Below are positions 37,243 through 59,360 of a stretch of DNA of 64,000 nucleotides, one piece after another. Each line of letters starts with the position of its first letter. The first letter of the stretch is position 1. The stretch is taken from positions 146,409 to 210,408 of the IMG/VR virus record IMGVR_UViG_3300046703_000335. The stretch is one strand, 5' to 3'. The translations under genes and the position numbers were made by a program. The stretch comes from a virus. The notes beneath the pieces were generated by a model that saw only the letters and a program-made list of their open reading frames with translations, ran no database searches and had not been told where the DNA came from.

Positions 37243-38031
37243 TTAGCGAGCTATCTTAACCCTTGTAATTGCCAATGGGTTATGGCACCCAATACCTAAA
37301 TTTTCGAAGACTGAAAATCCTATTCTTCTTGCCTTTGGATCATCAGCAGATAGTACTGTAAGTTCGGTACGTACAGGAATGCGCCCGAAAAATTCTGGTT
37401 CTGCGCAAACATAAGCATAACCAGGATTAACTTTTCTGCTGACGATGATCTGAGCACCCCAAACGGTACCAAGTAGACCACTCTTAAGCAATGTCCCTTG
37501 AGTTTCAATATCAAGAACGTCTCTTCCCCATTTTCTTAAATCTGCAAAGTCAAGAGCGTTCATGAAAATACGAGCAACTCGAAGATCATGAGTCTCAATA
37601 CGTGCAAAAGCGTCAATCAAGTTTGCAGGTGTAAGAGGAGCAACAGCATTGATCTGTGCGTTTACATATGCACTTCCAAGATTGTCAAAACCAAACTGAG
37701 AAACTGCATCCATAACATCAAAGGCACGTGCATCTTCAGCAGCTTGAATTTGAGCTTTTGCCAAATCCTGTGCGCGTTCGATAAGGTCAAAACGACGTTC
37801 TTTGATCTGTGTCAAAGGCAGTTCAGGATTCGATGCTATTTCGAAAAGAGGGAATATCACACGGCGAGGTTTTGTGATCGCCAGAATGTTTTCACCTTCT
37901 TCTCCGACAACGAAAGCAGTGACGTTAGGATCTTTGTCGTAAATTGGCAGCGCACCATCAGGGAGCTGTTCTACGAGAAAAGCCTTACGTGCAACTGACG
38001 TATAATCTCTGCGAAGACGCAGAGGCTGGAT
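37243..38031 (-). CDS. major capsid protein, exon 2
   Basis: This exon codes for 262 residues and joins exon 1 (39154-39252) to give a 295-residue major capsid protein. After the junction it reads IQPLRLRRDYTSVARKAFLV, then EQLPDGALPIYDKDPN and GEEGENILAITKPRRVIFPL. It continues with RVARIFMNALDFADLRKWGR and ends RIGFSVFENLGIGCHNPLAI, all in keeping with HK97-type capsid proteins of large myoviruses. An ORF caller would start it at an internal GTG (37860), losing the first 57 codons of the exon. The upstream part is supported by the open frame and by sense across the splice. A terminator follows. It forms the capsid lattice. Confidence 0.8.
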   Translation of the reverse strand: MQPLRLRRDYTSVARKAFLVEQLPDGALPIYDKDPNVTAFVVGEEGENILAITKPRRVIFPLFEIASNPELPLTQIKERRFDLIERAQDLAKAQIQAAEDARAFDVMDAVSQFGFDNLGSAYVNAQINAVAPLTPANLIDAFARIETHDLRVARIFMNALDFADLRKWGRDVLDIETQGTLLKSGLLGTVWGAQIIVSRKVNPGYAYVCAEPEFFGRIPVRTELTVLSADDPKARRIGFSVFENLGIGCHNPLAITRVKIAR

Positions 38032-39153
38032 CCACTTTGTTACTACCCTATTTAAGGGCGTATGAGTCTTTCAACTCATATCTCATGGTTACCCATGAGT
38101 TCAGACTGTATCACTACCTGTTATATACAGGTACTCGGCATGTCTTGACAAATTACTCTGTCAAGGTAGGTCTTATCGCCATTACCAAAACTTGGTATTA
38201 GGCTTCCCTCAGTCGTTGAACCTTCAATGGGGTTTCCCCCAAAGCTTGGCTGCTGATTGTCCTTTGAACGATATCTCTTAGGTAACTTATAGATCAAATC
38301 ATTAGTAATATTATCACGGATATACTCATAAGCAGTATCTCTTGATTCCTTCAAAACCCTAATATGGCATTCACCATCAGAGTTCTCAGTAACACTTACA
38401 ACCAGGTTTAAAACATCCTTAAAGATATCTATAACCAGTTCTTTGTTGTTTTTGAAAAAGCTATCATAAGACACTATAGTAAACCCGTAATCACCAACCG
38501 CCCCATCATCCATCCACCAAAAAGACAACCCTACACCAGTAAGTTCACTTAGTAGTTCAGCACTCAGTACCTTTGTACCTTCAGGATAAAACTTTTTTCT
38601 TAACTCTGTAAATTGATGCAAGGCATAACTCCTTGCATCAACATATGAAAAAAGTTCTCCACCGGATATAAAAGCTCTTTCACCATAAAATACTTTAGCA
38701 GTAAAAAGGCTTCATTATCTCTGCTTTTCTAAGCAATAGTTGCTCTTGTTTCACACTATGCCTACAAAGCCAATATCCAGTCCCAGATGATTGTACTGCA
38801 ATGCAGGAATCCCCAAACAAACTCCCATGCAGAAATTCTTTCTGATAGCTATTTAACGGAACCAATCTTAATGCGTTACGATTCAAATGATAGCCCTTAT
38901 TTGTACTAATACCATAGATACTTCTTAAGGTACAAACTACTCTATCAGTTAAACCATATTTTTCACCTATCTCAATATCGCATAAACCAGCATTGATGTA
39001 CTCTTCAACAAGCACATCTTCCGGCAAAACACTTATAAGTCTTGCCAGTTTCTCTTCGCTGATTATTACGTTATTGATCTTCATACCTACCCATCGTTCA
39101 AAGGATGTTCCAGACAATTTACCGAGTTTTACGTCCACCATCCAGAATCAATT
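38032..39153 (-). ncRNA. group I intron in the major capsid gene
   Basis: An 1122-base insertion between the two capsid exons. The 5' exon ends CCATT and pairs with GATGG at 39138-39142, with a U-G pair at the splice site (P1). CTCGGTA (39120-39126) pairs with TGCCGAG (38134-38140) as P3. TACCTG...CAGGTA at 38115-38133 makes P8. AGAC near 38142-38145 pairs with GTCT near 38103-38106 as P7. The intron ends in G (TGG before ATC). P9-like hairpins lie at 38082-38099 and 38061-38080. These elements are in the order of a group I ribozyme. P4-P6 were not worked out. It houses a LAGLIDADG gene. Confidence 0.75.
38121..39084 (-). pseudogene. intron-encoded LAGLIDADG endonuclease, frameshifted
   Basis: Two reading frames together make one endonuclease. 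I start it at the ATG near 39084 (MKINNVIISEEK), since an earlier ATG at 39141 lies inside the ribozyme core. An HTH-like part (DIEIGEKYGLTDRVVCTL) precedes the first LAGLIDADG helix (FLHGSLFGDSC); the frame then stops at 38695. The second frame continues the family sequence (KVFYGERAFISGGELFSYV) and holds the second helix (GVGLSFWWMDDGAVGD). Removing one base of an A5 run at 38703-38707 restores a single frame. The C-terminus overlaps P7-P8. Either a recent decay, a sequencing error or programmed slippage. It resembles the endonuclease part of the protein at 34476-37058. Confidence 0.7.
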
Positions 39154-39252
39154 AATGGACGCCGCTAACTTTGCACGGCCAGAAGCAGTCTTAATGTAAT
39201 CTCCAATGATCTGTTGTTTCAGTTCATTAGTGATTGTGTTTGTTCCTTCCAT
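39154..39252 (-). CDS. major capsid protein, exon 1
   Basis: Codes for the first 33 residues (MEGTNTITNELKQQII, GDYIKTASGRAKLAASI). A very strong ribosome site GGAGGAAGTGAA precedes the ATG, fitting a highly expressed capsid gene. The sequence GDYIKTASGRAKLAAS belongs to the N-terminus expected for this capsid family. Without splicing, the frame would stop two codons later (AAT TGA). Joined to exon 2 it reads KLAASI-IQPLRLRR. Confidence 0.8.
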
Positions 39253-39331
39253 TTCACTTCCTCCTAAAAAAATAAGTTTTCTGCGTGTCTACTATATCAT
39301 ATTATGGATTATTTTCACGGCTAACGATTAA

Positions 39332-39910
39332 TTAGATCGAAAGCTGAACAACCATAAATGGATCAGTTGCACTTGGAGCAATCAATACGATACCAACTAC
39401 GAAAGCTGCAACATCAACAGCTGTACTAACAGCATTGCTGAGCAAGCCATTCTGAGAAACATAAAGTCTTGCACCAGGAAGATATGTGATAGGAACTCCG
39501 GCACCAGCCTGAGTACATGTCTCATACATATCTGTTGAGAAAACGGTACCTGTTCCATGTAAATATGGGCATTTACCACTTGCTACACCAGAGCTTGACT
39601 CGAAAGGATAACCAACAGCGTTATTAATCGCAACACCAACTGGGCGACCAACAAGAACTGATGGAGCTGCATCTGTACCTGTACATGCTACGACTGTTCC
39701 GTTCACTGTTCCAACACATACAAACTGACCTGCAAGAATACCCTTAGGTGTGTCAGCACTAAGACGAGAATTCGCCAAAGATTGAACATTTGCACCGTAG
39801 TTATCTCTTGTCAGTCCAGCCGCTGTCAGATTCATGAGAGTATTCATTGTCACGCGATTGAGGATATTTAGGCCTCTATCAGGGGCAATTCCACTTCCTT
39901 CACCAACCAT
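39332..39910 (-). CDS. capsid-associated (decoration-type) protein
   Basis: A 192-residue protein directly upstream of the major capsid gene. It is rich in Ala, Val, Gly and Thr with many short strands (ILAGQFVCVGTVNGTVVACT, GRPVGVAINNAVGYPF, ARLYVSQNGLLSN), typical of small capsid decoration or cementing proteins. It is unusually neutral compared with its acidic neighbours. A good ribosome site lies before the ATG. Position between scaffold and major capsid gene supports the role; the family is not named. Confidence 0.6.
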   Translation of the reverse strand: MVGEGSGIAPDRGLNILNRVTMNTLMNLTAAGLTRDNYGANVQSLANSRLSADTPKGILAGQFVCVGTVNGTVVACTGTDAAPSVLVGRPVGVAINNAVGYPFESSSGVASGKCPYLHGTGTVFSTDMYETCTQAGAGVPITYLPGARLYVSQNGLLSNAVSTAVDVAAFVVGIVLIAPSATDPFMVVQLSI

Positions 39911-40031
39911 GTTAAACCTCCTATTAAATGAAACCCAATCCCCTTATGGGGCGGGTAGATACTGTTAAAAATCTTATATCGATCTTTTTACTACTGATAC
40001 CCCTCTAATAAAGTGGGGTATCGAATATCAC

Positions 40032-41039
40032 TTAATTAAAAATTTCTCTTACATCCGGAGCAGTAGACCATAGACTTGATAAGTCACTGGAACCACTTGA
40101 AGAAGCTTCTTTCTTAACCATACCGGAAAGTTTTGAAGCACCCTTCTTGATAGGAGAAGGCATAACACCACTGAAAATCTGATCAAGAAGACTTGCATCT
40201 TTTGATGAGCCTTCTTCTTCATCTTCTTCTTTTTTATCCTTGGAGGAAGCTTCGACTTCTTCTTCATCTTCTTCTTTTTTGGCAGAAGCTTCGACTTCTT
40301 CTTCGTCTTTGCCTACTTCTTTTTCAAGCTCTTCAGCTTGCTTTTTCAGGCTGGCAAGTTTTTCTTTTTTCTTTTTAATGTCCAGATCCTTAGTGCCGGC
40401 TTCTTTTTCTTTCTTATCATCTTCGTCTTTGTCGGCAGAGGCATCCTTCTCTTCTTTATCCTTATCATCTTCATCTTTGTCAGCAGAAGCATCCTTCTCT
40501 TCTTTATCCTTGTCATCTTCATCTTTGTCAGCAGAAGCATCCTTCTCTTCATCTTCTTCATCAGAAGAATCAGAAGCAGCTTTTGCGATCATCTGAGCGA
40601 GACCTTCTTGGTTTGCAAGAGTCGCATTAAGGCCCTCTTCAGGAAGATGCATAAGAATACCCGCCTGCTTCTCGATAATCTCGTCTGTAGCACCAGGAAG
40701 CATTCTCTGTGAAGCAATAATAGCTTTGACAGCTTTCTCTTCAAGTCTACGAGCACTTGCGATAGCTTCTTGAGCAGCATGTTTATCAATAAGAGGAGCA
40801 TGACCAGTCTCTTCACGTTTCTGATCATCTTTATTTACTTTGTCTTTATTAACGCCTTCATTCCATGCTTCAGGATCACCCTTAGCATATTCACCGACAC
40901 TTGGATTATTCTTGCTGTGTCCAGTATCATTCATATCAAAAACATCATTGTCAATTCCAGAACCCTTATCTTCAACTTGGGCACCTGGTTTTGACTTCAT
41001 ATCCGAAGCTAATCTGTTAGTCAAACGATTACGAGACAT
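40032..41039 (-). CDS. probable capsid scaffolding protein
   Basis: A 335-residue, very acidic protein between the capsid protease and capsid genes, the usual place for the scaffold. Residues 1-15 (MSRNRLTNRLASDMK) resemble the start of the protein at 62038-62691 (MSRDRLTMRVAAAEK). Residues about 85-160 are helical. About 160-215 contain three near-identical 16-residue repeats (EEKDASADKDEDDKDK). About 215-290 are Lys/Glu coiled coil, and the C-terminus is a short folded or capsid-binding tail (SSLWSTAPDVREIFN). CAGGAGGA precedes the ATG, with an exact promoter motif 71 bases upstream. Confidence 0.7.
   Translation of the reverse strand: MSRNRLTNRLASDMKSKPGAQVEDKGSGIDNDVFDMNDTGHSKNNPSVGEYAKGDPEAWNEGVNKDKVNKDDQKREETGHAPLIDKHAAQEAIASARRLEEKAVKAIIASQRMLPGATDEIIEKQAGILMHLPEEGLNATLANQEGLAQMIAKAASDSSDEEDEEKDASADKDEDDKDKEEKDASADKDEDDKDKEEKDASADKDEDDKKEKEAGTKDLDIKKKKEKLASLKKQAEELEKEVGKDEEEVEASAKKEEDEEEVEASSKDKKEEDEEEGSSKDASLLDQIFSGVMPSPIKKGASKLSGMVKKEASSSGSSDLSSLWSTAPDVREIFN
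40416..40560 (-). repeat. 48-base tandem repeat inside the scaffold gene
   Basis: Three copies of a 48-base unit, in frame, each coding EEKDASADKDEDDKDK or a close variant. The copies begin near 40435, 40483 and 40531 and differ by only a few bases, so the expansion is recent or maintained. Confidence 0.8.
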
Positions 41040-41109
41040 GCTTGTCCTCCTGTGTCAATTTATTTATGAAGTTCTAATGAACTTGGTTGTTTTCAGAGAA
41101 AAAACAGAT

Positions 41110-41124
41110 ATTAAGAGATTATTA
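41110..41124 (-). promoter_or_regulatory. phage promoter-like motif, exact
   Basis: Exact TAATAATCTCTTAAT upstream of the scaffold/decoration/capsid gene set. Confidence 0.65.
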
Positions 41125-41136
41125 TAAAAAAGTTTT

Positions 41137-43989
41137 TTACTCTTCAAATTGAGATAAAATCTTAGCCCATGAAGCTAACTTTTTACACTCTCTCTGACTT
41201 GGCTTGCGACCTATCTCAACTATCATCTTTGTGAAAAAGGGCACCATTCCTGTTGATCCAAGTTTGACTCTGGATAAAGTCTTAACTGCATCTGTACCAA
41301 CAGGGATATTAGAAGCATTCTTATCTATAAAGTGCAATATCCCTAAAACATCATCACGAGTGTACCCATACTTTTTAAATTGTTTCCAATTCTTAGTATT
41401 AGATAAAATCATAATACCATTGTACAGCCGATCATTTTTTGTATCTCTTGCAGAAGCTAAAATCTTTTTAAAACTAGCGGACTTGTTCACTAAGTTATCA
41501 TTTGTAGAAGTCTCTTCATCCGAAGGACGTCCACTATCTCCGCCATCTTGCTTAGCCTGATCCTTCATGATCTCTCTACGAATCTGATTAAGCAATTGTC
41601 TCTTTACCATATCTTTTACTTCACCGACTGTAGCATCCTCTTTAGGTTCTTCTATCTGAGGTTCCGGAGCTGCTGCGGGAGCACCACCCAAACCACCACC
41701 AAGATCATCACCAGGAGCACCCATAGAATCCGCAGGAGGAGCTGCTCCCTCTGCTGGAGGGGTATCTACGGTAAGAGGCTTATCTGCTTCTGGGGGAGCT
41801 TCAGGGAAGCTGAAATCATCTTTTGGAGGAGCCGGTGCATCGCCTTCAGCAGCTTCAAGATCTCTTACGATATCCTTTGCTGATTGAGCTGCTGACTTCA
41901 GGTACATTCCCGGGGTATAATCAAACCCTGGCATAACTACAGCTTTTTGTATCTTATCAGATACGTCAAAATCACAAGGAAGAACTTTATGAAGCACTGC
42001 CCCTTCAAAGGCAGGTTTACGTACCCAACTTGCATCTATAAATTTACAACTCTCAGGGTCGTCAACGCTGCCACATAATTCTGCTATTATCCTTTTTGTA
42101 CCATTCTTATCATAGAAATAATTACCTTTAAAATATTTTATATGCTTGCAAGATTGGGACTCATCTTCAGCTATACAACCGCACTGTGTACAGATACTAT
42201 ATTTTATCAAGCATCCCATTGACACAGCGGAATATTCACCAGATTGAATCTTATTTACAAGATCTGTATGCTTCTTATTAGTAGCTATAAGGATATCTAC
42301 GTACAGAGAAGTAAGGTCATTACCGTTTACATCTTTTGCAAAGGGTACCTCTCTCAAAGCCATATCAATAACTTTGCCTTTTGACAATTCAGAGATCTGG
42401 ACGTGTTCACAGTTATGCACTGTTACACCTTCAGCAACATAAGAGTTATCCCCTTCAACCTCTATGTTATAAACATCAAAAGTACCTTCTAAATCTCTTA
42501 TTCCATCTATTTTAGATATAGTCCATTTATTCCCACCATCTTCAAATACATGGGTTATCTTTTTAGATAATCTATCTGAAATCCTGGTATCTGTATGTCC
42601 TACAATTTCATTTAACTTTTTAGAATCCCTTGTAGATATCCTTAAAAAATATCCAGGTCTTGACTTCTTATTAGTAATTGGGTCTGTATATACTTCATAC
42701 CCATCAATTAACTCACAATCTGTATATCTCGGTAAAACCCCAACTTCCCTATAATTCGGAAGTATCCCCATTCTCCAAAACATCCAGTTAATTTGTTGAA
42801 TTAACGCTTGTGATTTAAGCTCTAGGCAATAACCTCTTGAGGTATGCTCTCCACACCCATCTCCATTAATACAATGCTTAACTATTATAGCCTGTAATTT
42901 TTTGGGGAGCCACATTGCCTCTTCTGGCATTTTTTTAGCCCAGGAATATTTACCACACCACTTCTTAAAAAACTGAGCTACTTCCTTATTACTAATTGAT
43001 AGGCAGTATGATCCTGATTGAGTTTCATACAATCTTGGTTTGCAATCTATTCTAAAAGTACTTCCAAATTCTTTTATTAATAGATAGGATAGCCTTTCAG
43101 CTACATCAGTCTCTTCATTACCAAGGGCAAAGGTTACTCCTGACTCTTCATCAGAAAAGACATTCTTATTATCATAATAACCTTCGGCAAGAAACCACCC
43201 TATTAACTCCGCTCTAGCTTCATTTATCTCATCATTAGGAATTTCGACTAACGATACAGGATGAGTAAAGAAATCTCTATCAGAATTAATATCCCCAGCA
43301 TTTTTCCATTCTGATGTTATCCCCCTTGGGTAAACTTCACCGGATGCTCTATGCACTCCGACAGAAAAACCTGTCCAGGTATCTAATAAACCAAAATTTG
43401 CATCTTTATCAAAAAAATTAGGACGACCTGTTTTTGGACAAGTCTCACGAGCATGGTATACCCAAAAAGGGTGATTTCTAGTTACGCATATTTTCCTAGA
43501 GAGAATATTCAGACCTGACATCTCTACTAAGTTATCAGCCTGATGCTTAAAAGTTCTTGTTACTTTTCCTATTTCACCCTTACGATTTATAACCCTATCA
43601 CCTTCGACTACCTGTTCTATAGCTTTATACGTACCATCAGCCATTAATACCCGTGTACCTGCTACAAAACAAAAATTATCAGCCCCAAGAAAACTCTTTG
43701 AAGCCATCCTCAATAATTTGGTTTCCCAGCTGTCTCCATTATTATTTACAAAAATTGAATATTCAGGTTTGATCAGATAGTTACTCTTAGGATCTTTTGG
43801 ATCAGCTAAGTCGACATCTACTGAGGCCATTATAGAAACATGACTAAGTAGCCATTTGGATGGATCAAACTGAGCTACAACATTTTTTGCTACAACAATG
43901 CGACCTTTTGGAACAACATTGTCCACCCATTTACCAGGGCAGACAACTTTATTCACTACAGCAGCATGTCCAAATTTAAGCATTGCCAT
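41137..43989 (-). CDS. probable capsid maturation protease, intein-interrupted
   Basis: A 950-residue precursor. Residues 107-526 are an intein; the exteins (1-106 and 527-950) give a 530-residue protein. The joined region reads SFLGADNF-CEHVQISELSKG. It continues DILIATNKKHTDLVNKIQSG, EYSAVSMGCLIKYSICTQCG and FIDASWVRKPAFEGAVLHKV, a pattern I recall from large myoviruses at the protease position between portal and scaffold. It includes a CxxC pair and a Pro/Gly-rich acidic linker, then a helical C-terminus. Such proteases cut scaffold and capsid proteins during maturation. Catalytic residues are not certain by eye; a neck or other head protein is the alternative. Confidence 0.65.
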   Translation of the reverse strand: MAMLKFGHAAVVNKVVCPGKWVDNVVPKGRIVVAKNVVAQFDPSKWLLSHVSIMASVDVDLADPKDPKSNYLIKPEYSIFVNNNGDSWETKLLRMASKSFLGADNFCFVAGTRVLMADGTYKAIEQVVEGDRVINRKGEIGKVTRTFKHQADNLVEMSGLNILSRKICVTRNHPFWVYHARETCPKTGRPNFFDKDANFGLLDTWTGFSVGVHRASGEVYPRGITSEWKNAGDINSDRDFFTHPVSLVEIPNDEINEARAELIGWFLAEGYYDNKNVFSDEESGVTFALGNEETDVAERLSYLLIKEFGSTFRIDCKPRLYETQSGSYCLSISNKEVAQFFKKWCGKYSWAKKMPEEAMWLPKKLQAIIVKHCINGDGCGEHTSRGYCLELKSQALIQQINWMFWRMGILPNYREVGVLPRYTDCELIDGYEVYTDPITNKKSRPGYFLRISTRDSKKLNEIVGHTDTRISDRLSKKITHVFEDGGNKWTISKIDGIRDLEGTFDVYNIEVEGDNSYVAEGVTVHNCEHVQISELSKGKVIDMALREVPFAKDVNGNDLTSLYVDILIATNKKHTDLVNKIQSGEYSAVSMGCLIKYSICTQCGCIAEDESQSCKHIKYFKGNYFYDKNGTKRIIAELCGSVDDPESCKFIDASWVRKPAFEGAVLHKVLPCDFDVSDKIQKAVVMPGFDYTPGMYLKSAAQSAKDIVRDLEAAEGDAPAPPKDDFSFPEAPPEADKPLTVDTPPAEGAAPPADSMGAPGDDLGGGLGGAPAAAPEPQIEEPKEDATVGEVKDMVKRQLLNQIRREIMKDQAKQDGGDSGRPSDEETSTNDNLVNKSASFKKILASARDTKNDRLYNGIMILSNTKNWKQFKKYGYTRDDVLGILHFIDKNASNIPVGTDAVKTLSRVKLGSTGMVPFFTKMIVEIGRKPSQRECKKLASWAKILSQFEE
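42412..43671 (-). mobile_element. intein with LAGLIDADG endonuclease (in protease gene)
   Basis: A 420-residue intein. It starts with Cys107 (CFVAGTRVLMADGTYKAIEQ, block A) and has a TRNHPFWV block B. It has LAGLIDADG helices (ELIGWFLAEGYY, IIVKHCINGDGCGEH) and ends GVTVHN before Cys527. Standard class 1 splice chemistry (Cys1, terminal His-Asn, Cys+1) looks intact. Confidence 0.9.
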
Positions 43990-44010
43990 TATATAAAATC
44001 CTTATTGCTA

Positions 44011-44565
44011 TTAAGCCTTAATGCTCTTATAGATTTTGCTGACAGCAGATCTCATAAGACCATCGGAGCAGATATTAGAATACCGAGGATACAAACTCTG
44101 ATAAGCTTGTATGTCCGTCAGACCTTTACTGACACATGCAACGACATCATTAGCCAATTTTGTCACGACATTATCAGCAAAGTTACCTGCTACCTTAGAA
44201 GCCATCCCAGACATACGCTTTTTAGCGGCTTCTTTAGAGGTCATCTTACTTGCCATTTTTTTAATCTTATCCTGAAGAGTACCGTAATTCTCATCAGAAA
44301 TAGTCTTATCAAAACTACCGTAACCTGTATCTTCACCAACCGGAGAAGTACCTACAAAAGGTGTAATCAGAATAAGCTCCGTAGGATCTTTCTGCTGATT
44401 ACCTCCCATAGGAAAATCTACCCACACCTTATTTATTGCGGGACATACTTGAGTCACCACACCAACATAAGGTGATATAGATTTCTCACTGGTGAACCAT
44501 TTTACCTGATCACCAATTTTATAGTTCTCTGCCGATCCTGATGGATGAGGGTATAAACCTGGCAT
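44011..44565 (-). CDS. head-region hypothetical protein
   Basis: A 184-residue protein with AAAGGAT before the ATG. Residues 1-70 form a small beta barrel-like part (YKIGDQVKWFTSE, GVVTQVCPAINKVWVDFPMG). Residues about 100-184 are helical and basic with repeated KKMASKMTSKEAAKKRMSG motifs. It lies directly before the protease gene in the head operon. A minor head protein or DNA-contacting protein is possible. No family recognised. Confidence 0.55.
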   Translation of the reverse strand: MPGLYPHPSGSAENYKIGDQVKWFTSEKSISPYVGVVTQVCPAINKVWVDFPMGGNQQKDPTELILITPFVGTSPVGEDTGYGSFDKTISDENYGTLQDKIKKMASKMTSKEAAKKRMSGMASKVAGNFADNVVTKLANDVVACVSKGLTDIQAYQSLYPRYSNICSDGLMRSAVSKIYKSIKA

Positions 44566-44583
44566 GATTACTATCCTTTCGCC

Positions 44584-45207: not shown

Positions 45208-45242
45208 CCTAATCCTCCTTAAAAACCTATGTCAAATTATTA

Positions 45243-46026: not shown

Positions 46027-46043
46027 ATCACTAATCTCCTTAT

Positions 46044-46403: not shown

Positions 46404-49400
46404 TTAACCCTTAGACATATATTCAGCTATTTTATCCAACTTTTCAGGATGCTTCATAACTACAGAAATAAGTTTAGTTAATGCTGCCTGTTTCTTACTA
46501 TCTAACCCTGCAGAAGAAAATCTACCCATACCTCCACCGCCAAGACCCCCACCGCCAAGACCCTCGCCTAACCCGCCCTCTTCCCCAGCAGGTGGTGGTG
46601 GAAGCGGATCAAGATTAAGATACTCAGCAAGTCGATCAGCCACTGTAAATCGTTCGACCAGCGCCTGTCCTGCGGCACTATAGATATTTGCCAAAAGTTG
46701 ATTGAATGCAAAGTCATTGACTGTGAACAAATCAGCTTCAATCTTTTTACGAGTAGAAATAGGATCGATATTAAGCATCTCAAGGATCACATCTATGGAA
46801 ATTGATCCTTTATTATAAAGCTGCATAGCCTGGTCAAAGAAAGTATCGTTATCTTTGATAGCAAGACGTGTAAAGCTTAATCGTGGATATATAAGTTTTT
46901 CTCTTCCGTATTTATCCTTCTCAATAAAACCTTTTTTTCTCGCCACAGGTTTAAAGAGATAATCCTCAACATATTCCTGAAGGAGTTCCCGGAATAAGAG
47001 GTACTGGGTATTTAGAATCTCGAGAGTCATCTTATTACCCGCATATGTACCTTCACCGGTCAAAATCTCTCGGGTAACTCCAAGACCTGCAAATAAGCTA
47101 TTCTCAATGTGCTCATACTCACTGGAGAGTTCTAAGAGACGACCATTTGAACCCATTTCTTCCCAGTGAACTTCATAGTTGGCAATGATAGAGAAGTCGG
47201 GATCAACAAGAGCAGTGTCCACTTGTTCCCTTAAATTCTCGATATCCACATCAGATAACTCTTCAGCCCATACTACCCGTATTGGGGTCATATGCCGGGA
47301 TGCTATCTGTGTCTGAGCCTGACGAAGCTTATCCTGTAGTAGTAACGAGTTAATACATCTTTCAAGAATTGATACTCCAAGAGTCTCATATTGACTTTTT
47401 TTACGAGCCATATGATAAACATATGACCCACTGTATGGATCAGTATCAAGAGGGATACTACCATTCTGTTGAAGATCCATAGAGAGTGACTTGGGTAATC
47501 GTGGCATGGCACTCTCCTCTTCCGGACTAAGCGGGAAGTAGGCAGGATCCTGCGAACTGAGAATACTCTTACGGGTTTCCGGATCAGGAATAAATTCTAT
47601 AAGGCTCTCATCCGAAAAAGGAATCTTTTTGATACGGACCTGGTCAGGTGGGAGGATTATTAACTTTCTCCAGCCCTTATAATTTGGATCCTTATCAATA
47701 ACTTTAAATTCTTTGAAGAGTCTCTCAGACTCTATTCTTCCCCACTCCTTAAGCTCTGCTACTTTAGCTTTACCCTCTTCATTACCCTCATCTACTTCAT
47801 ATGGGTTGTGGTCCTCCGCATAAGTAAAACAGTTGTGCGTGCTATATCCTGCTACCTGATATGTATGATCCTCTTCCACTTCAAAGTTATAAACGAAGTC
47901 ATTATAAGCTGTCTCTTCTATTGTTTTAACTTTAAATGCTATATCCCCATCAATATTAATCCAATATCTATTATCATCAGGGAAATGAGCATCATCAGGT
48001 AGGCTCTTATTAGAATATTGGGTTAGTATGTCACAGGAAGTTTCATCAGAGGCAGTTAATATATATGCATCTCTTACTACTTTTAGGGTACCATTTGGAA
48101 GAACGCATTCCCTGTTAGAAAAGTGATTTAAGCTACACACAGCACCACATTTAAGAGAGATATCCCTAATATTATCGATTAAACCTTTTGAGACCGTGGT
48201 ACAAGAAACAATAGTATGTCTTTTAGGACCCGCCACAGTGACACACCCATCTGAATCAACAATCCCTGCTAAAAAGTTCTTTAACTTTTCGATAGGTAAA
48301 TTTATAAACCACTCAGGTATCCTTTTTAGATTTTTACCAAGAGATGTTTCACCAAAGTTACTTGACCACCACTCTATAAATGCAGGGTTAGAATTTACTT
48401 TAAGATAAGTCATCCCCTCACATGTCCATACTTTTATAGCATCGATACCAAAGATCTTTATTAATATTCGATATAATCTATCGATTTCTATTACACATGT
48501 TTCTTTAGCAGATATCTGCCACAAACCTCTACCCCAGTTACTACGTGAGGAATCCCGAGAGAGAGTTCCATCCCCAGCCCAGAAACCTACTAAATAAGCG
48601 AAATCATCATCTATCTCAAGAGTATCTATTGCATTTAGAAACTTCTGTCTCTTATGTATGTACGTACCAGTAATTTCAATACTGGAGGTATCCGTTGGTA
48701 GCCATCTTACTTGTGATCCTTTTTGATATCCTTTAGCTCCTATCCGCTCATGAAACTTAGTATCTATAATCTCCTGTAATGAACTCACAGCAGCATTTAA
48801 TGATCGTAAGGGCACATCAAAAAGTTCAGCGAGTTCTTGATGAGTTTTTATTATAGGTTCTTTTAAAGCATTAAGCCAATTTAAAAGTCCTTTTTTAGCA
48901 GTAATCGCTTTTTCTGATCTTGGCTGATTTATCGTAACATTTGATATATATCCCCCATCAACTTTTGTATAGGTTGATGGAAAACTAAGAGGCAATTCAT
49001 GTACATCTGACACCTCTACAGGCCATGTTACTCTTATGTAGTCTTTTAAAGTTAAATCTTCAGCTTCAATAAAGATAAATTCCCCGTCTCTAAATACCTC
49101 TACAGGGTGCTCTCCTGTAATGGGTAACTCTTTAAATGTCTTCCAGGTATTTATCTTATATATAGTATCTGAGGGTCTACAAAATTTATTAGTTACTTTT
49201 CGATATCTTCCTTTATTCGTTAGTAGATAATCACCGATAGCTACTTCATCAGCTCTTTTAATGCCTGATAGCGTCTTTATTTCAGCGTAATTAGCCAGGC
49301 AATTACCTAACAAATGGTATTCGTGGCTTATCTCGAGTAAGGTCTTAAAAAGCTTGGTTTCACTACATAATTCTAAAAAGAACTCATATACATAGTCAAT

Positions 49401-49829
49401 CTGTTCCTGATTATCCCCATGAGGTTTTTCAAGCCTAATTTTAGACAAAGGAAGAGTAGAATGGAGATCGATCGCCTGTCCTACAAACTCATTTGCATTA
49501 TAAAAGTTTCGATACCAGGCGCGTCGTTCTCGTAAATTTTGCGGTTTCTCAAGAAAGTCAGTAGATAGCTGAGGAGAATAAAAGTTACCTTGAGAACTCT
49601 CTGATGTACCACCACTACTATAGCCTCCACCAGAAAAAGCTGAGCGGGTATTAAACCCAAAATTACTTGTAGTAGCATACTTTTTTATCTTACGTACTGC
49701 TTTTTCTTTTTCAGTAAGTTTTGAGGAAGGCATAATGTTATCCCCATTCTTTACTGTGGCAGCAGTCTTTATCGTGGCAGCAGTCTTAGAGCGTACAGTT
49801 GTTTTAGTACGAGTTCCTTCTTTATTCAT
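46404..49829 (-). CDS. portal protein, intein-interrupted
   Basis: A 1141-residue precursor. Residues 177-666 are an intein; the mature portal would have 651 residues. The exteins match myovirus portals: RAWYRNFYNANEFVGQAIDL, then LLGN-CFTYAEDHNPYEVD. Next come WRKLIILPPDQVRIKKIPFS, GVSILERCINSLLLQDKLRQ and FAGLGVTREILTGEGTYAGN. Portals form the dodecameric ring through which DNA enters and leaves. The N-terminus is basic and Ser/Gly-rich; the C-terminus has a Gly-rich GEGLGGGGLGGGGMG linker. GAGGGA precedes the ATG. Confidence 0.85.
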   Translation of the reverse strand: MNKEGTRTKTTVRSKTAATIKTAATVKNGDNIMPSSKLTEKEKAVRKIKKYATTSNFGFNTRSAFSGGGYSSGGTSESSQGNFYSPQLSTDFLEKPQNLRERRAWYRNFYNANEFVGQAIDLHSTLPLSKIRLEKPHGDNQEQIDYVYEFFLELCSETKLFKTLLEISHEYHLLGNCLANYAEIKTLSGIKRADEVAIGDYLLTNKGRYRKVTNKFCRPSDTIYKINTWKTFKELPITGEHPVEVFRDGEFIFIEAEDLTLKDYIRVTWPVEVSDVHELPLSFPSTYTKVDGGYISNVTINQPRSEKAITAKKGLLNWLNALKEPIIKTHQELAELFDVPLRSLNAAVSSLQEIIDTKFHERIGAKGYQKGSQVRWLPTDTSSIEITGTYIHKRQKFLNAIDTLEIDDDFAYLVGFWAGDGTLSRDSSRSNWGRGLWQISAKETCVIEIDRLYRILIKIFGIDAIKVWTCEGMTYLKVNSNPAFIEWWSSNFGETSLGKNLKRIPEWFINLPIEKLKNFLAGIVDSDGCVTVAGPKRHTIVSCTTVSKGLIDNIRDISLKCGAVCSLNHFSNRECVLPNGTLKVVRDAYILTASDETSCDILTQYSNKSLPDDAHFPDDNRYWINIDGDIAFKVKTIEETAYNDFVYNFEVEEDHTYQVAGYSTHNCFTYAEDHNPYEVDEGNEEGKAKVAELKEWGRIESERLFKEFKVIDKDPNYKGWRKLIILPPDQVRIKKIPFSDESLIEFIPDPETRKSILSSQDPAYFPLSPEEESAMPRLPKSLSMDLQQNGSIPLDTDPYSGSYVYHMARKKSQYETLGVSILERCINSLLLQDKLRQAQTQIASRHMTPIRVVWAEELSDVDIENLREQVDTALVDPDFSIIANYEVHWEEMGSNGRLLELSSEYEHIENSLFAGLGVTREILTGEGTYAGNKMTLEILNTQYLLFRELLQEYVEDYLFKPVARKKGFIEKDKYGREKLIYPRLSFTRLAIKDNDTFFDQAMQLYNKGSISIDVILEMLNIDPISTRKKIEADLFTVNDFAFNQLLANIYSAAGQALVERFTVADRLAEYLNLDPLPPPPAGEEGGLGEGLGGGGLGGGGMGRFSSAGLDSKKQAALTKLISVVMKHPEKLDKIAEYMSKG
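47832..49301 (-). mobile_element. intein with LAGLIDADG endonuclease (in portal gene)
   Basis: A 490-residue intein from Cys177 (CLANYAEIKTLSGIKRADEV) to a GYSTHN end before Cys667. It has the ITGEHPVEVF block B and LAGLIDADG helices YLVGFWAGDGTLS and FLAGIVDSDGC. Splice residues look intact. Confidence 0.9.
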
Positions 49830-51984: not shown

Positions 51985-51986
51985 AA

Positions 51987-52011
51987 GAAAGGGGGCTTTT
52001 CGCCCCCTTTC
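51987..52011. terminator. bidirectional hairpin terminator
   Basis: Nine-pair stem AAAGGGGGC/GCCCCCTTT with a TTTTC loop between convergent stop codons. It can serve the LamG gene and the 1355-residue gene. Confidence 0.8.
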
Positions 52012-52015
52012 CTGT

Positions 52016-55000
52016 TTAAGATTGATAGTATCCTATGTAAGTTTTACCTACCATGTTTGCCACTTTACCAATACCTTCTGATACGATGCACAGATCAAGA
52101 CTCCACTCTCCACTATAGATCTTTTCAAGATTAGTACCCACATGAATTCTATTCTGTTTAATTAATCTTGGATAAAGTACCATCTTCCAATCAGCAGTCT
52201 CTGCTCCATTATCAGCATTCTGTTTGCCAAAAGTTATAAAATTGAAATCCTTAATAACTCTCTCGTATGGTGTATAAAGTGAAAAAGATTTATAGCCATT
52301 ATTATCCGCAGAAGTAGCATACTGCCACCAATTACTCTTAGGAATATACAACCCAATCGCTTTATCCACTGAATAGATAGATGGAAATGCCGCATTAGTA
52401 TCAATAATATCTGCTTGAACTTTAATGACAAAATTATCATCTCCAAATCTATTACCTTCAGGATACCAGTCGATATTTATTCCACCATCCCGATTACGGA
52501 AATATGGTGAAGTAAAATAATATTTAGTAATTGCACTTGTAGTAGGCACTATTATTGATGGGTCATACTTATAGCCAGACCATTCAATGATTAATGACCC
52601 AAGACTTGCTATAGTTATTCTTTCACACCGTAGCTTCTTATACTTCTGTATAGTAATATCTCCCACTATAATCTCATCAGGAGATGTATCTGTTGAAGCC
52701 TCAATTTCATTATATTGCGTTTCAAGATAACTAGCATTATCAAATGCCCATCTACCCGGGATTCTATCTATAGGAGTATCGTAATACTCTTTCATAGTCA
52801 GCATATAATACTGTTGCGGATCAGTAATAGGTGGATCTAAAGGCAATCCAAGTCCACTACTATTATCCAAATAAATTCTCTTAGTAGATGTAAATTTCTT
52901 TTCACGAAGAATGATCTGATTATTCTGATACTCCTCTCCATTCGAAGAATCGGCTATCCGCCCAATAACGGTAACATTAGGAGGGGTAACAATATCCTGA
53001 TTACCCTCTGGAGCCTCAGCCCCTACAAATCTCAATGCCTTTACCTCAAGAATATCGTTAATCAGTACTCTACCCTGAACCTGCAACCTATAATCAGTAT
53101 TAACATCTGTAATGGGACCAACACCCATATACTGAGTTTTAAGAATGCCGTTAGTAGAAATATTCCCCTTAACTTCAACAGCTACATCTGAATAATTCCC
53201 TCGACCATCAGAAAAATCTACAGTAAATGTCTTTAATTTTTCAGTATCTGTAACATTACGACTATCAATGAGGTGAAGACCAAAAGGATTTGATGTGCTA
53301 CCTGGTGTACCACCAATATTCGCAGATACTTTTGGATCTTTAAGATTTGTGAAGCCTAAAGTCCCCATAATATTACTATTAACATCCGTACCCCTTAAAG
53401 CGATCTCATTCGCCATCCCTGTACCTTTTACATAAAGATTGAGATTAGCATCAGATTGCCTTAATCCTTCATATATTACATCCGCACCATCTCCGAAAGA
53501 AGCTCCTTCTTTGAAGTACCCCTTTTTACCACACCAGATATTATTCTTTACAGTTAGATTCTGGACATTAGCAATATTAAAAATCTGCTCATTTGCATAA
53601 ATCGTCCCGTAAACAAAGATATCATCTCTAAAAATAACATTTGGGGAAAAGGTCACCCGGTTAAGCAGGCCTATTCCATTGAAATAGACATCACCGTTAA
53701 ACAACCACCCATCCGCAGCTTCACCAAGATCGAGCTTAGCAAATTTAATATTGAGGAAATCTCCACCATACCCACCAGAACCAAAATAATGAAATTTGGT
53801 AAATGCGACATCTACAGGAGCAAACAAACCTCGTGTCACTCTAAATAATTCTACTGCCTCGACCTTGATAGGATCAGCACCATTTAAAAGGTCTTTAATA
53901 ATAATGCGACCATGCTGATCACCACTCATACCTGTATACCCAAACGGATCTTCTACAACTTGTACTCCATATGCTATACCGGTTTCTGAAGTCACGGTAC
54001 CATCAGTATTATTATAAATAAAATTGTAAACTCTACTATCAGGCATACCAGTATATCCCTGATTGGGATCTGCCGGGAATCCTATGTTGTTAAGGATATC
54101 ATCTTTAACTTCTTCAATACCCCCCCACCCAGCTTGTGTAAGGGTAACGCTACCTGATACAATGGTACTATTTTCGAGTCTTATTTGATAATCGACCACA
54201 TCACCAGCGATAACAGTCCCTATCGGTTCTGGAAGAAGAAGCAAAGAATAATCGGACAGATATGCTGTACTGATGCCCATACCATAGAGACTCTTAACAT
54301 CACGATCATAACCATTTCCGATATCACCAATGGTAAAAAGACGAGTTCCCTCCGCATCATAAGCCTCATACGCTACCTGACCCCCAGTATAACCATAAGC
54401 AGAGACCCCTGTCTCACCAATAACTGCTATACCGCGTTTAACGAGAACAATAGCTGCAGCATCCACAACATCGGAGGATTGCGGGATTCCTGTAAACCCT
54501 ATTAAAGCAGGCATTTCACGTGAAACTGTCCCAGGGAGTTTCCAGGTTCTACCATACATATCCCGCTCGATATATGCATCTTTCCCTACAAACAAATGAT
54601 CATTTACCTGAGCAGACCCGTTAATTTCAAGAATGGTATTTACACCAGTGGCACCTTGGAAGCCATCATTATATCGATCAGTATTCCAGATAGGATCAGG
54701 TTGTTCCTGTCCCGGTGTTACAGTATTAAGACCTACTCGACCTTCATAGTCAACTGCTACATAATTCTTTATATCACCATCTTGTATAGCTTTGGCGAGA
54801 AGAATCAGTGAACCGGTCTCCCCATCGAAGTTTGTTATAGATACTATATTTTTACCAGTTTCACCTCTATGAATTACACTTAATGTATCCGAATATTCTC
54901 TCATACCTGTGATACCGGTTTCTCCAAACCCAATCATGACCTGTCTAGCAGATATCTGCTGAGCTATAATTTCTCCGGAATTAAGAGCTTCAGGACCTGT

Positions 55001-56083
55001 CTCCAGGGTAATTAATCCTGTATCATTCCCTACCATCAAACCTTGCATGGCGAACATGCCAGTATTACTTAAAACACGAGGAGTCACAGAATTACTATTG
55101 AATGCTTCAGTACCCAGACCTTGGTTTAACCCCGTGGCAAAAGCACCCTCATCTATAATCCCATTGGGGAATTGTGGTGTAAAACCATCAAGATTTTTAT
55201 CAGCAATATTTTCAGTATTATACCCACCATGAGTGATCCGATAAGAAATCTCATCAAGAGAGCACACTCTTTTATTATACAAGCTAAGTAAATCAACTAT
55301 CTGATTATCTTCTATTGTATCAGAAAAAGCAGTACGGTAAATAGCTGCTATTGGTATATTATAAGTATTGTCAGTAGGTTGACCATCGGAGCTTACAGCT
55401 CCGATAAACTCTACATCTCCTTGAGACTCATTGAAAATATCCTTACTTATAGGAGTATTCCAACCTTCAAGGACTCTTATATCTATAACCGCTCTTAATC
55501 GATTAGCTGTCTCTGTTCCTACAATAGGATTTTTAAGATTGCTATCCCGGTAGACATCCTGATCGGTACCCGTAGCTGCAGTAACTTCTGCAAAATGAAG
55601 ACTTACATAAACTATATCTATGCGATCTGTATCGGGCTGATTGATCATTGGGATAGGGGTAAGTGTTTTTGATTTATCTGTTTGAGTATTCAGATCGATA
55701 TTGTCTGAAGGATATGTCTGATCCCTATACTCTATATCTCCTGTCAGAAAAATATAATATCCTTTTGCATACAATACTGCTGGTCGATCGAGACTGACTC
55801 CTCCAGATACCGTAAAATTTTCCTGAGTACCAAATATCATTCCACCTTCTTTTACTTTGAAAGCTTCTGCAGTACTAAAAAATCCGGAAAATTTATTATT
55901 AGGAGATGCTACTTCGCCATAGACATGCTGGATACCCCGGCGTACTTGATCCAGTAAACCAATACCCATGTTACGGACTTCATCATCAAGTAAGGGCTTG
56001 TTTTTCTGAGCCCACAGATAATAGTAACGATTATATTCACCATATACGATCACATCAGAGTAAAATCCGCGTTTTCCTGACAT
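52016..56083 (-). CDS. large tail fibre or baseplate-associated protein
   Basis: A 1355-residue protein with AGAGGAT before the ATG. Residues 1-330 form a conserved-looking head with an N-terminal virion-attachment style (GFYSDVIVYGEYNRYYYLWA, IDIVYVSLHFAEVTA, VIDIRVLEGWNTPISKDIFN). The rest is beta-rich, with at least fifteen isolated TG motifs (ETGITGM, RGETGKN, DGETGS, GYTGMP) and a Ser/Thr/Gly/Asn composition typical of fibres. The C-terminal 100 residues are beta-rich with Trp and Tyr. Located between TerL and the portal operon, an unusual place for a fibre. No chaperone follows. Confidence 0.65.
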   Translation of the reverse strand: MSGKRGFYSDVIVYGEYNRYYYLWAQKNKPLLDDEVRNMGIGLLDQVRRGIQHVYGEVASPNNKFSGFFSTAEAFKVKEGGMIFGTQENFTVSGGVSLDRPAVLYAKGYYIFLTGDIEYRDQTYPSDNIDLNTQTDKSKTLTPIPMINQPDTDRIDIVYVSLHFAEVTAATGTDQDVYRDSNLKNPIVGTETANRLRAVIDIRVLEGWNTPISKDIFNESQGDVEFIGAVSSDGQPTDNTYNIPIAAIYRTAFSDTIEDNQIVDLLSLYNKRVCSLDEISYRITHGGYNTENIADKNLDGFTPQFPNGIIDEGAFATGLNQGLGTEAFNSNSVTPRVLSNTGMFAMQGLMVGNDTGLITLETGPEALNSGEIIAQQISARQVMIGFGETGITGMREYSDTLSVIHRGETGKNIVSITNFDGETGSLILLAKAIQDGDIKNYVAVDYEGRVGLNTVTPGQEQPDPIWNTDRYNDGFQGATGVNTILEINGSAQVNDHLFVGKDAYIERDMYGRTWKLPGTVSREMPALIGFTGIPQSSDVVDAAAIVLVKRGIAVIGETGVSAYGYTGGQVAYEAYDAEGTRLFTIGDIGNGYDRDVKSLYGMGISTAYLSDYSLLLLPEPIGTVIAGDVVDYQIRLENSTIVSGSVTLTQAGWGGIEEVKDDILNNIGFPADPNQGYTGMPDSRVYNFIYNNTDGTVTSETGIAYGVQVVEDPFGYTGMSGDQHGRIIIKDLLNGADPIKVEAVELFRVTRGLFAPVDVAFTKFHYFGSGGYGGDFLNIKFAKLDLGEAADGWLFNGDVYFNGIGLLNRVTFSPNVIFRDDIFVYGTIYANEQIFNIANVQNLTVKNNIWCGKKGYFKEGASFGDGADVIYEGLRQSDANLNLYVKGTGMANEIALRGTDVNSNIMGTLGFTNLKDPKVSANIGGTPGSTSNPFGLHLIDSRNVTDTEKLKTFTVDFSDGRGNYSDVAVEVKGNISTNGILKTQYMGVGPITDVNTDYRLQVQGRVLINDILEVKALRFVGAEAPEGNQDIVTPPNVTVIGRIADSSNGEEYQNNQIILREKKFTSTKRIYLDNSSGLGLPLDPPITDPQQYYMLTMKEYYDTPIDRIPGRWAFDNASYLETQYNEIEASTDTSPDEIIVGDITIQKYKKLRCERITIASLGSLIIEWSGYKYDPSIIVPTTSAITKYYFTSPYFRNRDGGINIDWYPEGNRFGDDNFVIKVQADIIDTNAAFPSIYSVDKAIGLYIPKSNWWQYATSADNNGYKSFSLYTPYERVIKDFNFITFGKQNADNGAETADWKMVLYPRLIKQNRIHVGTNLEKIYSGEWSLDLCIVSEGIGKVANMVGKTYIGYYQS

Positions 56084-56111
56084 TTTTACATCCTCTTTTT
56101 ATATTTCCACA

Positions 56112-59100
56112 TTATCTCGAGAATCTATTCCCACTACTCATACCAGAAAATCTTGAGGATGGTCTATTTAAACTAAATTTACTCATCTCAGATTTTCTTA
56201 ACATCCTAGCCATCCTCAAATGTCCTACAGCAGCTGACCCTGCTATATTATGTGTAAATGACTTATTTCTATATTCATGAGCGATATACACCATACGAGC
56301 AAGACTATCACTTAAGTCATCGTGCTCTCCTTCTCTTTCTGGAGCTGCTACTTGTACGATATATTTAGATTTCTGTTGAGCCTGCAAAGTCAAAAGTTCT
56401 GTAACAAGTATAGAATCTGTAGATCTTATACCTTTTACAAATACTTCATCACCTTCAGGTATTCTTAATATCCTGGATAGTAAACATGACAAAAGCATTT
56501 GATATACGGAAGAATTAAGACTGTCATTAAAGTGTCTTGCTTCAAACTGCTTAAGTCCTAATCTATGAAGCTTAGGTTCCATAGTCATATCATAGTACTG
56601 ATCAAACAAACCTTTAGCTATGTAAAACTTTTTAGTGAAAGATGCTATCCAATCCACCATTTCTTCTGGTTCAAAATATTCCTTACCTTCATCTTTGGCG
56701 AATCTTATACCATAGTAGTCAATTTCAAGCTTATCAACTTTTACCCCTTCAACTAATTCCTGTATCCAATGACCTATAGTTATGGCAGTACCATCCTTTT
56801 TTAATCCTAAATCTACTCCCATAAAATGAGGTACACGTTGCATACTTCGATCTTTTATTTTAAGACCAGGTATAACATTTCTTCTTACAATTTCTGGATC
56901 ATCTAACCAGCCAAACATACGATCGCTGAACTGAGCACCATATTCTGATTTAAAAGTTATAGGGTTAGCACTATAACTATTCTTTAGAAATTGTGTAGAG
57001 AGATCGGGATCAACTTCCCATGTTGGAGCCTGCATCATAAATAAATCTTCATTTTCCTCTTCAAAAGATCGTTCATATTCCTTGAAGAATTTTCCAGTCA
57101 TAGGCCCAGGAGAAGACAAACAAATAATTTTTCCATCTGGCGTACCATCAGGTTTTTTAAACTTAGCGACAGATGGTGTAGCTGCTTTATATATCGCCCC
57201 ATCATCCCTGTCTTTATTACTGGTTACACCGCCACCCTTTTCGTCTGCGAAAAAGAATGCCATCTCATCAAGAGCCACGACGATATTACCTGGACCACGA
57301 AGACCCTTCGCACTACACGGTGCTACTCGAATATTTATAGATGCCAAACCCTTTGGACCATACTTATCAAGATCTCTCTGGGTATGTAAATAGACATATT
57401 GCTGTGTGGGTTTTCTTCGATATTTACGAAAAAATTCAGATCGTTCTATATGACCCACGATCTTTGTAAATAGTTCACTGGCTGTATCTTTACTAGTAGA
57501 TATGCATGTTACTTTTATAGTATCTTCTGGCATGATCCCATAGTATTCTTGAGGGCAATATTTATTTAGCAATTTATAAACTTCATAGGCTATAATACAA
57601 GACGTGATTGTCGAGTTATGATTAGTCATGCCATTAGCTACGAATGACTCTCCATCAGGTACATTTAAATCATAAACTTTACATTCTCCAGACTCAGTGC
57701 TTACAACTTTATCCCAGTAATAATTCGCATTATATATTTCTTCAAAATGATTTATTAGTAGTATATCAGCATTAGCGTCTTTTACCTTATCTAATACATT
57801 TTTTAACCTTGGGTAAGTCATTTGCTCATTACAGTTTTTTATAACATTCCCCAGAGCATCTTTAATCCTTGTACGATGACGATCTCCACTCCCTTTACCA
57901 TTTATATTGAACTGACCATTAGGTACAGAATCTCTTAATTTTCTACACCATTCTTTTTGATTAGGTATAGATTCGGTAGAACTCTTATTACCCTGATAAC
58001 CCTTTAGTATATATTCATTTAATAAAGATTGCTTTCTATCACTTAAAAAGCCTATCTCCTTATTAAATATATTCATTGAGTTAGAACCTATGATATTTAT
58101 ATGACAATAAACTTTATTATATTTTTTATTAGTCCGATATCTTATTCTACATACAATGCCAAAATTTAATAAAAGAAGTTGTACTTCCTGAGCTAATCTT
58201 TTACTTGCAGTTGAAAAAGAAATAACTCTATTACCCTCAAAGCAACCATCTGTTTCAAATAAACCTTTTAGAAACGCAGCTACTACTCTCTTCGGAGACT
58301 GCATGATAACCCATGGTATTCGTTTATTATCAGATTTTGCATCTAAATTATACCCTATCTTATCAAGAAAACTTCTTAGTAGCATTGAATAATAACACAC
58401 TCTATAGTATCTATTTTTACGATAGCAATTAACACTTGGAGTACCCACGGACTTTTCGAATATATCCTTTACTTTTTCTAACCACTCAGGATAAGGGCCC
58501 ACCGTTACTTGGATACCGTTTTCATTACCCCAAGTTCCATCCCCAACAAGTACTCCTAATAATGTAGCCCAATTCTCATCTATGATATTAGGAAGGTTAT
58601 ATTCTTTGATGTTAACTTTATTTTCAAGTACTAAATTTTCATGAAATTTTTTCAAGGAAATATTCTCTATAGGCCACAGATCAGTCTTTCTATTTATACC
58701 TATATAATCCCCTATCTTAATATCTTCTAAGTATCTCCATTGAATAATACCTTCTTCAGACATAACCTTAATTCGATGATTGGGGGTTCCTTCCTCTTCA
58801 AAACCACAATAACTAACTACTCTGATAGTTTTCCTTACCCCACCATTATAAAAATAAGCAGAAGAAGATCTTTTACCCATTTCTTGAACGACAGTCTCAA
58901 TAAGAGGCTGATATTCCGGTCCATCAGGATTACCCAGCTTTTGAATCTCTATAAAACCTCTACCAGTATTAATTAATGTATCCCCTGTTAAGCACTTTCC
59001 AGAACGCCGCCCGCACACTAAAACCATGTTAGGATACATCTGACCTTGTTCATATAGTCTGTTGATCCTGCCTTCATTGAACAAAAACATCATGTATTCC

Positions 59101-59360
59101 TGTTCATTGAATCGATAGAGTTCAACTTCATTAAACTGATCATTTACTATGATATCTCTATTTGCAGAATTATCAAGTTCAAGACCATAATATGATTTTA
59201 TGATAAATCTTTGAGCGGGGTAAAGAGCTGGAACGTCACTATTGCAACCCATGGCAAGACCCCAGGGTGCTGTAATAAAATCTATAACATTTTTATCAAG
59301 ATATTCTTTATTTTCGCCTCTCGGAGAAATGAGATTAGCACATAGTTCAGATAAGCTCAT
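56112..59360 (-). CDS. terminase large subunit (TerL), intein-interrupted
   Basis: A 1082-residue precursor. Residues 123-582 are an intein; the mature enzyme has 622 residues. The ATPase part has Walker A GRRSGK split from STITS by the intein, and Walker B IVVALDEMAF. The nuclease part has FMGVDLGLKKDGTAITIG with the first metal-binding Asp. TerL pumps DNA into the prohead and cuts concatemers. GGAAGGA precedes the ATG. Confidence 0.9.
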   Translation of the reverse strand: MSLSELCANLISPRGENKEYLDKNVIDFITAPWGLAMGCNSDVPALYPAQRFIIKSYYGLELDNSANRDIIVNDQFNEVELYRFNEQEYMMFLFNEGRINRLYEQGQMYPNMVLVCGRRSGKCLTGDTLINTGRGFIEIQKLGNPDGPEYQPLIETVVQEMGKRSSSAYFYNGGVRKTIRVVSYCGFEEEGTPNHRIKVMSEEGIIQWRYLEDIKIGDYIGINRKTDLWPIENISLKKFHENLVLENKVNIKEYNLPNIIDENWATLLGVLVGDGTWGNENGIQVTVGPYPEWLEKVKDIFEKSVGTPSVNCYRKNRYYRVCYYSMLLRSFLDKIGYNLDAKSDNKRIPWVIMQSPKRVVAAFLKGLFETDGCFEGNRVISFSTASKRLAQEVQLLLLNFGIVCRIRYRTNKKYNKVYCHINIIGSNSMNIFNKEIGFLSDRKQSLLNEYILKGYQGNKSSTESIPNQKEWCRKLRDSVPNGQFNINGKGSGDRHRTRIKDALGNVIKNCNEQMTYPRLKNVLDKVKDANADILLINHFEEIYNANYYWDKVVSTESGECKVYDLNVPDGESFVANGMTNHNSTITSCIIAYEVYKLLNKYCPQEYYGIMPEDTIKVTCISTSKDTASELFTKIVGHIERSEFFRKYRRKPTQQYVYLHTQRDLDKYGPKGLASINIRVAPCSAKGLRGPGNIVVALDEMAFFFADEKGGGVTSNKDRDDGAIYKAATPSVAKFKKPDGTPDGKIICLSSPGPMTGKFFKEYERSFEEENEDLFMMQAPTWEVDPDLSTQFLKNSYSANPITFKSEYGAQFSDRMFGWLDDPEIVRRNVIPGLKIKDRSMQRVPHFMGVDLGLKKDGTAITIGHWIQELVEGVKVDKLEIDYYGIRFAKDEGKEYFEPEEMVDWIASFTKKFYIAKGLFDQYYDMTMEPKLHRLGLKQFEARHFNDSLNSSVYQMLLSCLLSRILRIPEGDEVFVKGIRSTDSILVTELLTLQAQQKSKYIVQVAAPEREGEHDDLSDSLARMVYIAHEYRNKSFTHNIAGSAAVGHLRMARMLRKSEMSKFSLNRPSSRFSGMSSGNRFSR
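57615..58994 (-). mobile_element. intein with LAGLIDADG endonuclease (in TerL Walker A)
   Basis: A 460-residue intein from Cys123 (CLTGDTLINTGRGFIEIQKL) to GMTNHN before Ser583. It has a TPNHRIKV block B, and LAGLIDADG helices TLLGVLVGDGTWG and FLKGLFETDGCF. It interrupts the P-loop between GK and ST, so no ATPase forms until it is spliced out. Confidence 0.9.

Follow-up and report, generated by a model that had tools for sequence, protein, structure and literature searches.

Why should each main packaging and capsid gene of a single phage be interrupted by a self-splicing element? The question is raised by a DNA stretch of 64,000 nucleotides (here called the window), corresponding to positions 146409-210408 and forming the terminal part of the 210,408-base virus record IMGVR_UViG_3300046703_000335. 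In this window the genes for TerL, the portal protein, a probable prohead (head maturation) protease and the major capsid protein (MCP) lie on the minus strand in one 22-kb block, and each carries an insert, three of them inteins of the LAGLIDADG class and the fourth a group I intron. An initial annotation, made from the letters alone, had offered two explanations, simple accumulation at conserved sites or the use of splicing to time late assembly. We find it very probable that four separate mobile elements each invaded one head gene and that their present distribution results from independent gain and loss.

Three inteins and a group I intron in the head genes

Inteins of 460, 490 and 420 residues had been annotated in TerL, the portal protein and the protease, respectively, and our analysis gave exactly these lengths, with each insert in frame. 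The terL gene (56112..59360, minus strand, as are the other head-gene features below) encodes 1082 residues, of which 622 are left when the exteins are joined. Its intein (57615..58994, residues 123-582, junctions GRRSGK^C...NHN^S) splits the Walker A motif (GRRSGK^S), and contains HINT blocks together with the LAGLIDADG motifs GVLVGDGTW and GLFETDGC. The portal gene (46404..49829, 1141 residues, 651 after joining of the exteins) bears its intein at 47832..49301 (residues 177-666, LLGN^C...THN^C), with the motifs GFWAGDGTL and GIVDSDGC. In the protease gene (41137..43989, 950 residues, joined exteins of 530), the intein (42412..43671, residues 107-526, ADNF^C...VHN^C, motifs GWFLAEGYY and HCINGDGC) is inserted two residues upstream of an invariant His. 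The protease also has an invariant Ser-Met-Gly (SMG) motif, and other relatives have a second intein site immediately after it. Judging from their invariance, this His and Ser are probably the catalytic residues.

All three inteins begin with Cys, end with His-Asn and are followed by Ser or Cys at position +1, so that the splice residues are present in each. The HINT family PF14890 scored above its cut-off in the TerL and portal inteins; in the protease intein it remained below, and TIGR01443 was above its own cut-off. PF14528 was above cut-off in all three, each of which has two LAGLIDADG motifs with acidic residues. Altogether, intein and LAGLIDADG families of Pfam and NCBIfam matched the inserts with E values of approximately 1e-6 to 1e-28, and matches were also found in the PDB. 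The predicted folds of the portal and protease inteins are nearest to PI-SceI and other intein endonucleases: the AlphaFold2 model of the portal intein has a predicted local distance difference test score (pLDDT) of 80 and matches PI-SceI in Foldseek with an E value of 1.8e-17, and that of the protease intein has a pLDDT of 55 overall, with the terminal splicing parts mostly near 80-88, and a Foldseek E value of 1e-11. The other inteins seen in relatives were all in frame and stop-free. On sequence and predicted fold the three inserts are LAGLIDADG inteins, which would be translated within their host proteins and excise themselves, the exteins being rejoined, and which would also be able to cut DNA.

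The group I intron that had been assigned to the MCP gene measures 1,122 nt, and both its junctions and its RNA core support the assignment. Exon 1 (39155..39252, 98 nt) ends 3' with GCGTCCAT, the intron (38033..39154) begins with UAAUU and has G as its last base, and exon 2 (37243..38032) starts with GATCCAG. The spliced MCP of 295 residues aligns closely with those of relatives, ungapped at the junction. The 5' end of the intron forms an in-frame stop, and the unspliced mRNA would encode a 34-residue peptide only. The internal guide strand GUGGAC (39133..39138) forms P1 with GUCCAU of exon 1, placing a U-G pair at the splice site; the pairing of the final U of exon 1 with the guide G, as well as the intron-final G, was found in all five distinct alleles. 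Next to it, CUGGAU (39140..39145) forms P10 with AUCCAG of exon 2. Read by eye, this helix covaries with exon 2, being CUGGGU/ACCCAG in contig L122 and GAAUC/GAUUC in contig L124, which places both splice sites with single-nucleotide precision. The guanosine-binding helix P7 consists of GACUG (38210..38214) and CAGUC (38104..38108).

When the five distinct alleles were aligned, 99.1% of the positions of 45 core pairs were paired, and 9 pairs (14 cells) were changed on both sides. None of 500 shuffles matched this core pairing, and slid controls paired at 31-40%, which excludes chance as the origin of the group I fold. P1, P3-P7 and P9 pair and covary, and P8, whose sequence varies between alleles by compensatory changes, forms a stem in each of them. 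No Rfam match at gathering score was obtained in the window, the intron reaching 29.3 bits with RF00028 (E 3.5e-5; gathering score 50 bits); the orthologous intron of contig L027 (347 nt, without an open reading frame (ORF)) scored 61.3 bits, above the gathering score. The intron RNA would be predicted to excise itself from the capsid messenger. A further, weak RF00028 match (15.5 bits) lies at G000:C1:86839-86991, beside ordinary open frames.

Allele families, empty sites and the homing cycle

By its head genes, the window probably belongs to a Donellivirus-like jumbo phage related to Bacillus phage G. Portal protein, protease and MCP have homologues in the same order in phage G, with identities of 28%, 33% and 40%, respectively, and a tblastn search of phage G with the window TerL gave no match. 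All four proteins have homologues in LR745208.1, an uncultured phage of 485 kb (MCP 74%), and head-gene homologues are also present in Tunturiibacter phage Tunturi_5 (MCP 48%). Comparison with insert-free relatives, as the initial annotation had advised, showed that most relatives have no inserts, and that the window proteins, once the inserts are removed, align to theirs ungapped across the junctions. All four sites are empty in contig 3300029286_000037, the MCP of which shares 98% identity with that of the window.

We scored occupancy by reading the junctions in the contigs of relatives. The site was filled in 4 of 9 cases for TerL, 9 of 34 for the portal gene, 6 of 58 for the protease gene and 5 of 89 for MCP, where 84 contigs had it empty. 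The product of these four frequencies is approximately 7e-4, and a single scan confirmed 464 MCP relatives, so that one four-fold carrier is unsurprising under independent accumulation. Contigs with two inserts also occur among the relatives, in the combinations TerL with MCP and portal with protease. The invasion of all main head genes, which had been considered striking, therefore lies within what independent accumulation would give. Nor is it specific to head genes, since the same contig, outside the window, carries a family A DNA polymerase gene (PolA; G000:C1:76552-80400, L118:2053-5901) with an intein-like LAGLIDADG insert in frame (IQG^C...SKN^T), in which Lys takes the place of the usual penultimate His.

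The inteins fall into families by site. Identity to the window inteins at the same site is 61-89% for the protease, 40-57% for the portal protein and 46-54% for TerL (contigs L010, L012 and L013/L014), against approximately 24-29% over partial lengths between sites; such site-specific families with weak cross-site likeness argue for separate invasions. Further intein sites are occupied in relatives, near residue 335 of the portal protein and near residues 60 and 173 of the protease (L079:2063-3588; L076:4986-6307; L017/L018, L035, L038).

The protease intein is under strong purifying selection, the ratio of nonsynonymous to synonymous divergence (dN/dS) being about 0.08-0.12 in a simple Nei-Gojobori count. 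Between the window and contig L032 the protease exteins are 50% and the inteins 62% identical, and this higher likeness of the intein indicates that it moved between lineages; for contig L023 the corresponding values are 70% and 61%. The closest pair is formed by the window and contig L097; here the protease intein and extein have the same synonymous divergence, as would be expected had the intein been inherited vertically after the two separated. L097 has an empty capsid site, and the same intein end is also seen in its portal gene.

The capsid intron shows how these elements may decay. LAGLIDADG frames had been described as open in all four inserts, which is correct for the three inteins; in the intron, however, a single additional T within a run of five (38703..38707) interrupts the frame. 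The break separates the N-terminal part of a LAGLIDADG_2 endonuclease (38695..39084, first motif GSLFGDS) from the C-terminal part (38121..~38709, second motif FWWMDDGAV), which extends into the ribozyme core. The two halves are 58% and 56% identical to the intact 318-aa LAGLIDADG_2 endonuclease encoded in a single frame by the L124 intron, and apart from this single-base break they contain no other stop. In the L122 intron a deletion has left only the two ends of the endonuclease gene, and the L027 intron retains a remnant resembling its first few codons. An unrelated ORF of 303 codons (L026:9037-9948), again extending into the ribozyme core, replaces the LAGLIDADG gene in contig L026, which is identical to L031 over the compared 1,100-base stretch; by eye its product is PD-(D/E)XK nuclease-like, and it has no Pfam support. 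Read from these sequences, the capsid site displays the whole homing cycle, with the endonuclease intact, frameshifted, deleted or replaced and the site empty, a mixture which the homing cycle model predicts (PMC1654191). The junction sequence GCGTCCAT occurs at the end of exon 1 in all five distinct intron alleles, and most empty alleles use other codons; this fits the copying of flanks during homing and a target or pairing requirement alike.

Origin and maintenance of the four elements

Our preferred explanation is that the three inteins and the intron entered the head genes at positions of high conservation in the encoded proteins. Each element would have spread when its endonuclease cut the matching empty site of a co-infecting relative and repair copied the element across, and the empty, full and decaying alleles of relatives would be the outcome of independent gain and loss. 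Of the two original proposals, simple accumulation at conserved sites is thus the one favoured, by the conserved and probably catalytic positions of the sites, the allele families, the mostly empty sites and the joint frequency. Some points weigh against this explanation. We infer splicing, cutting and homing activity from sequence. Occupancy was counted on fragments that include near-duplicate contigs, from relatives chosen by similarity and with phylogeny ignored. In addition, an additional U in P4 (5' strand, 39114), absent from the four other alleles, and the broken endonuclease make the splicing efficiency of the window intron uncertain.

Alternatively, the carrier could gain a competitive edge if the endonucleases attacked the head genes of co-infecting relatives, and the elements would then persist for this benefit. 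The intron endonuclease of PhiPA3 acts in this way against PhiKZ (PMC11620839), and the purifying selection on the protease intein and the conservation of acidic LAGLIDADG residues in each of the three inteins also favour this reading. Immediately downstream of MCP lies a gene (34476..37058, minus strand, 860 aa) in which a helix-turn-helix domain, LAGLIDADG_2 and a DNA methyltransferase are fused, its LAGLIDADG part being a paralogue of the intron endonuclease; related LAGLIDADG-methyltransferase genes recur in this position among many relatives, whether the intron is present or not. The head module might then be a standing battleground, in which inteins, capsid intron and LAGLIDADG-methyltransferase genes persist by attack on the head genes of co-infecting relatives, and element content would decide who assembles. 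Homing alone, however, would also give purifying selection, carriers are outnumbered at each of the four sites scored, a fitness benefit has no support in these data, and the intron endonuclease of the window is broken. We therefore regard interference of this kind, and the battleground that it implies, as unlikely.

That the phage uses conditional splicing of these elements as a switch, to its own benefit, for the timing of late head assembly is far less probable still. In its favour, each of the four inserts lies within a conserved protein region, so that the precursors would be expected to lack activity before splicing, and a mycobacterial DnaB intein has been described as a sensor of oxidative stress (PMC6195587). 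Insertion at catalytic motifs is nevertheless a general rule for inteins (PMC2814812, PMC5050341), occupancy is patchy and varies freely between relatives, and near relatives with the same head genes, such as the contig with the almost identical MCP, lack all four elements. The broken intron endonuclease is what would be expected of a selfish element. Empty, filled and decaying sites among relatives point to ordinary accumulation of mobile elements and not to a special assembly switch.

Duplication of one element within the genome, with spread to four head genes, might be suggested by the LAGLIDADG nature of all the elements and their location within one 22-kb block, but it is refuted by the low cross-site identities compared with the 40-89% found at the same sites in other phages, and the intron, an RNA element, encodes a LAGLIDADG_2 endonuclease, those of the inteins being of the LAGLIDADG_3 family. 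That the inserts are normal protein parts or an assembly artefact can be dismissed, since they are absent from most relatives and have same-site orthologues in independent contigs, even though the contig is metagenomic and sequencing errors could account for the two places in the intron that differ by one base (39114; 38703-38707).

Neighbouring genes and known phage systems

Three other genes of the window may be mentioned. On the strand opposite to the structural genes, 16287-18422 (plus strand) encodes a 711-aa protein in which DUF7487 is combined with a Mom-like DNA modification domain. A protein of 452 aa containing repeats of a treble-clef-like unit (DUF4379), encoded at 6278-7636 (minus strand), resembles the product of a free-standing nuclease gene among the tail genes, and a short radical SAM protein of 174 aa is encoded at 14719-15243 (minus strand) within the structural gene block.

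Phages with inteins in TerL or the portal protein, and with introns in the capsid gene, are already known, and the window adds one more such case. The Cluster J mycobacteriophage LittleE has, like the window, both a TerL intein and a capsid-gene intron, probably of group I, in one phage (PMC3706429). According to the same report, capsid splicing in Cluster J was proven by reverse transcription PCR and N-terminal sequencing, and relatives without either insert exist; its TerL inteins differ in being HNH and not LAGLIDADG, and the excerpted text of the report mentions no portal or protease intein. In crAss-like Delta and Zeta phages, group I introns likewise interrupt MCP, and TerL contains inteins (PMC7886860); these phages differ from the window in belonging to another lineage and being more densely infested, no portal or protease inteins being reported in the excerpted text. 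In the Jug huge phages many splicing events are backed by transcript reads, but infestation is denser, the elements are mostly introns and the commonest endonuclease is HNH (PMC12363816). Mycobacteriophage inteins are known from portal proteins and from the ATPase domain of TerL, where they lie close to functional motifs, and several were shown to splice and to cut; these are spread over many separate phage clusters, and a capsid-gene insert is not mentioned in the text of that survey (PMC5050341).

With the window portal and protease inteins as queries, we detected in-frame intein-like inserts in the portal protein and in a protease-aligning protein of Eggerthella phage LE2-3 (MW679026.1). 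They occupy other insertion sites than in the window, and TerL and MCP of LE2-3 are annotated at ordinary length. LE23_71 of this record (L125:13587-16700), annotated as a 'tRNA synthetase', has ends that align with the protease family and an intein-like insert, and is probably misannotated. Among annotated phage records, the best match to the TerL intein was in Psychrobacillus phage Perkons (MT325768.1; 31.6% over all 460 residues), where the intein also lies within the terminase gene; this phage is distant, and the comparison concerns TerL only. We found no precedent in the open-licence literature, a scope which is no proof of absence, for the protease as intein host or for the exact combination of four genes.

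The four insertions reveal no new mechanism. They do carry a warning for annotation, as TerL, portal, protease and capsid genes of this kind look oversized or broken. In nature, the head genes of a single jumbo-phage clade show the homing cycle in all its stages at one site, and the cycle thus becomes testable in phages.
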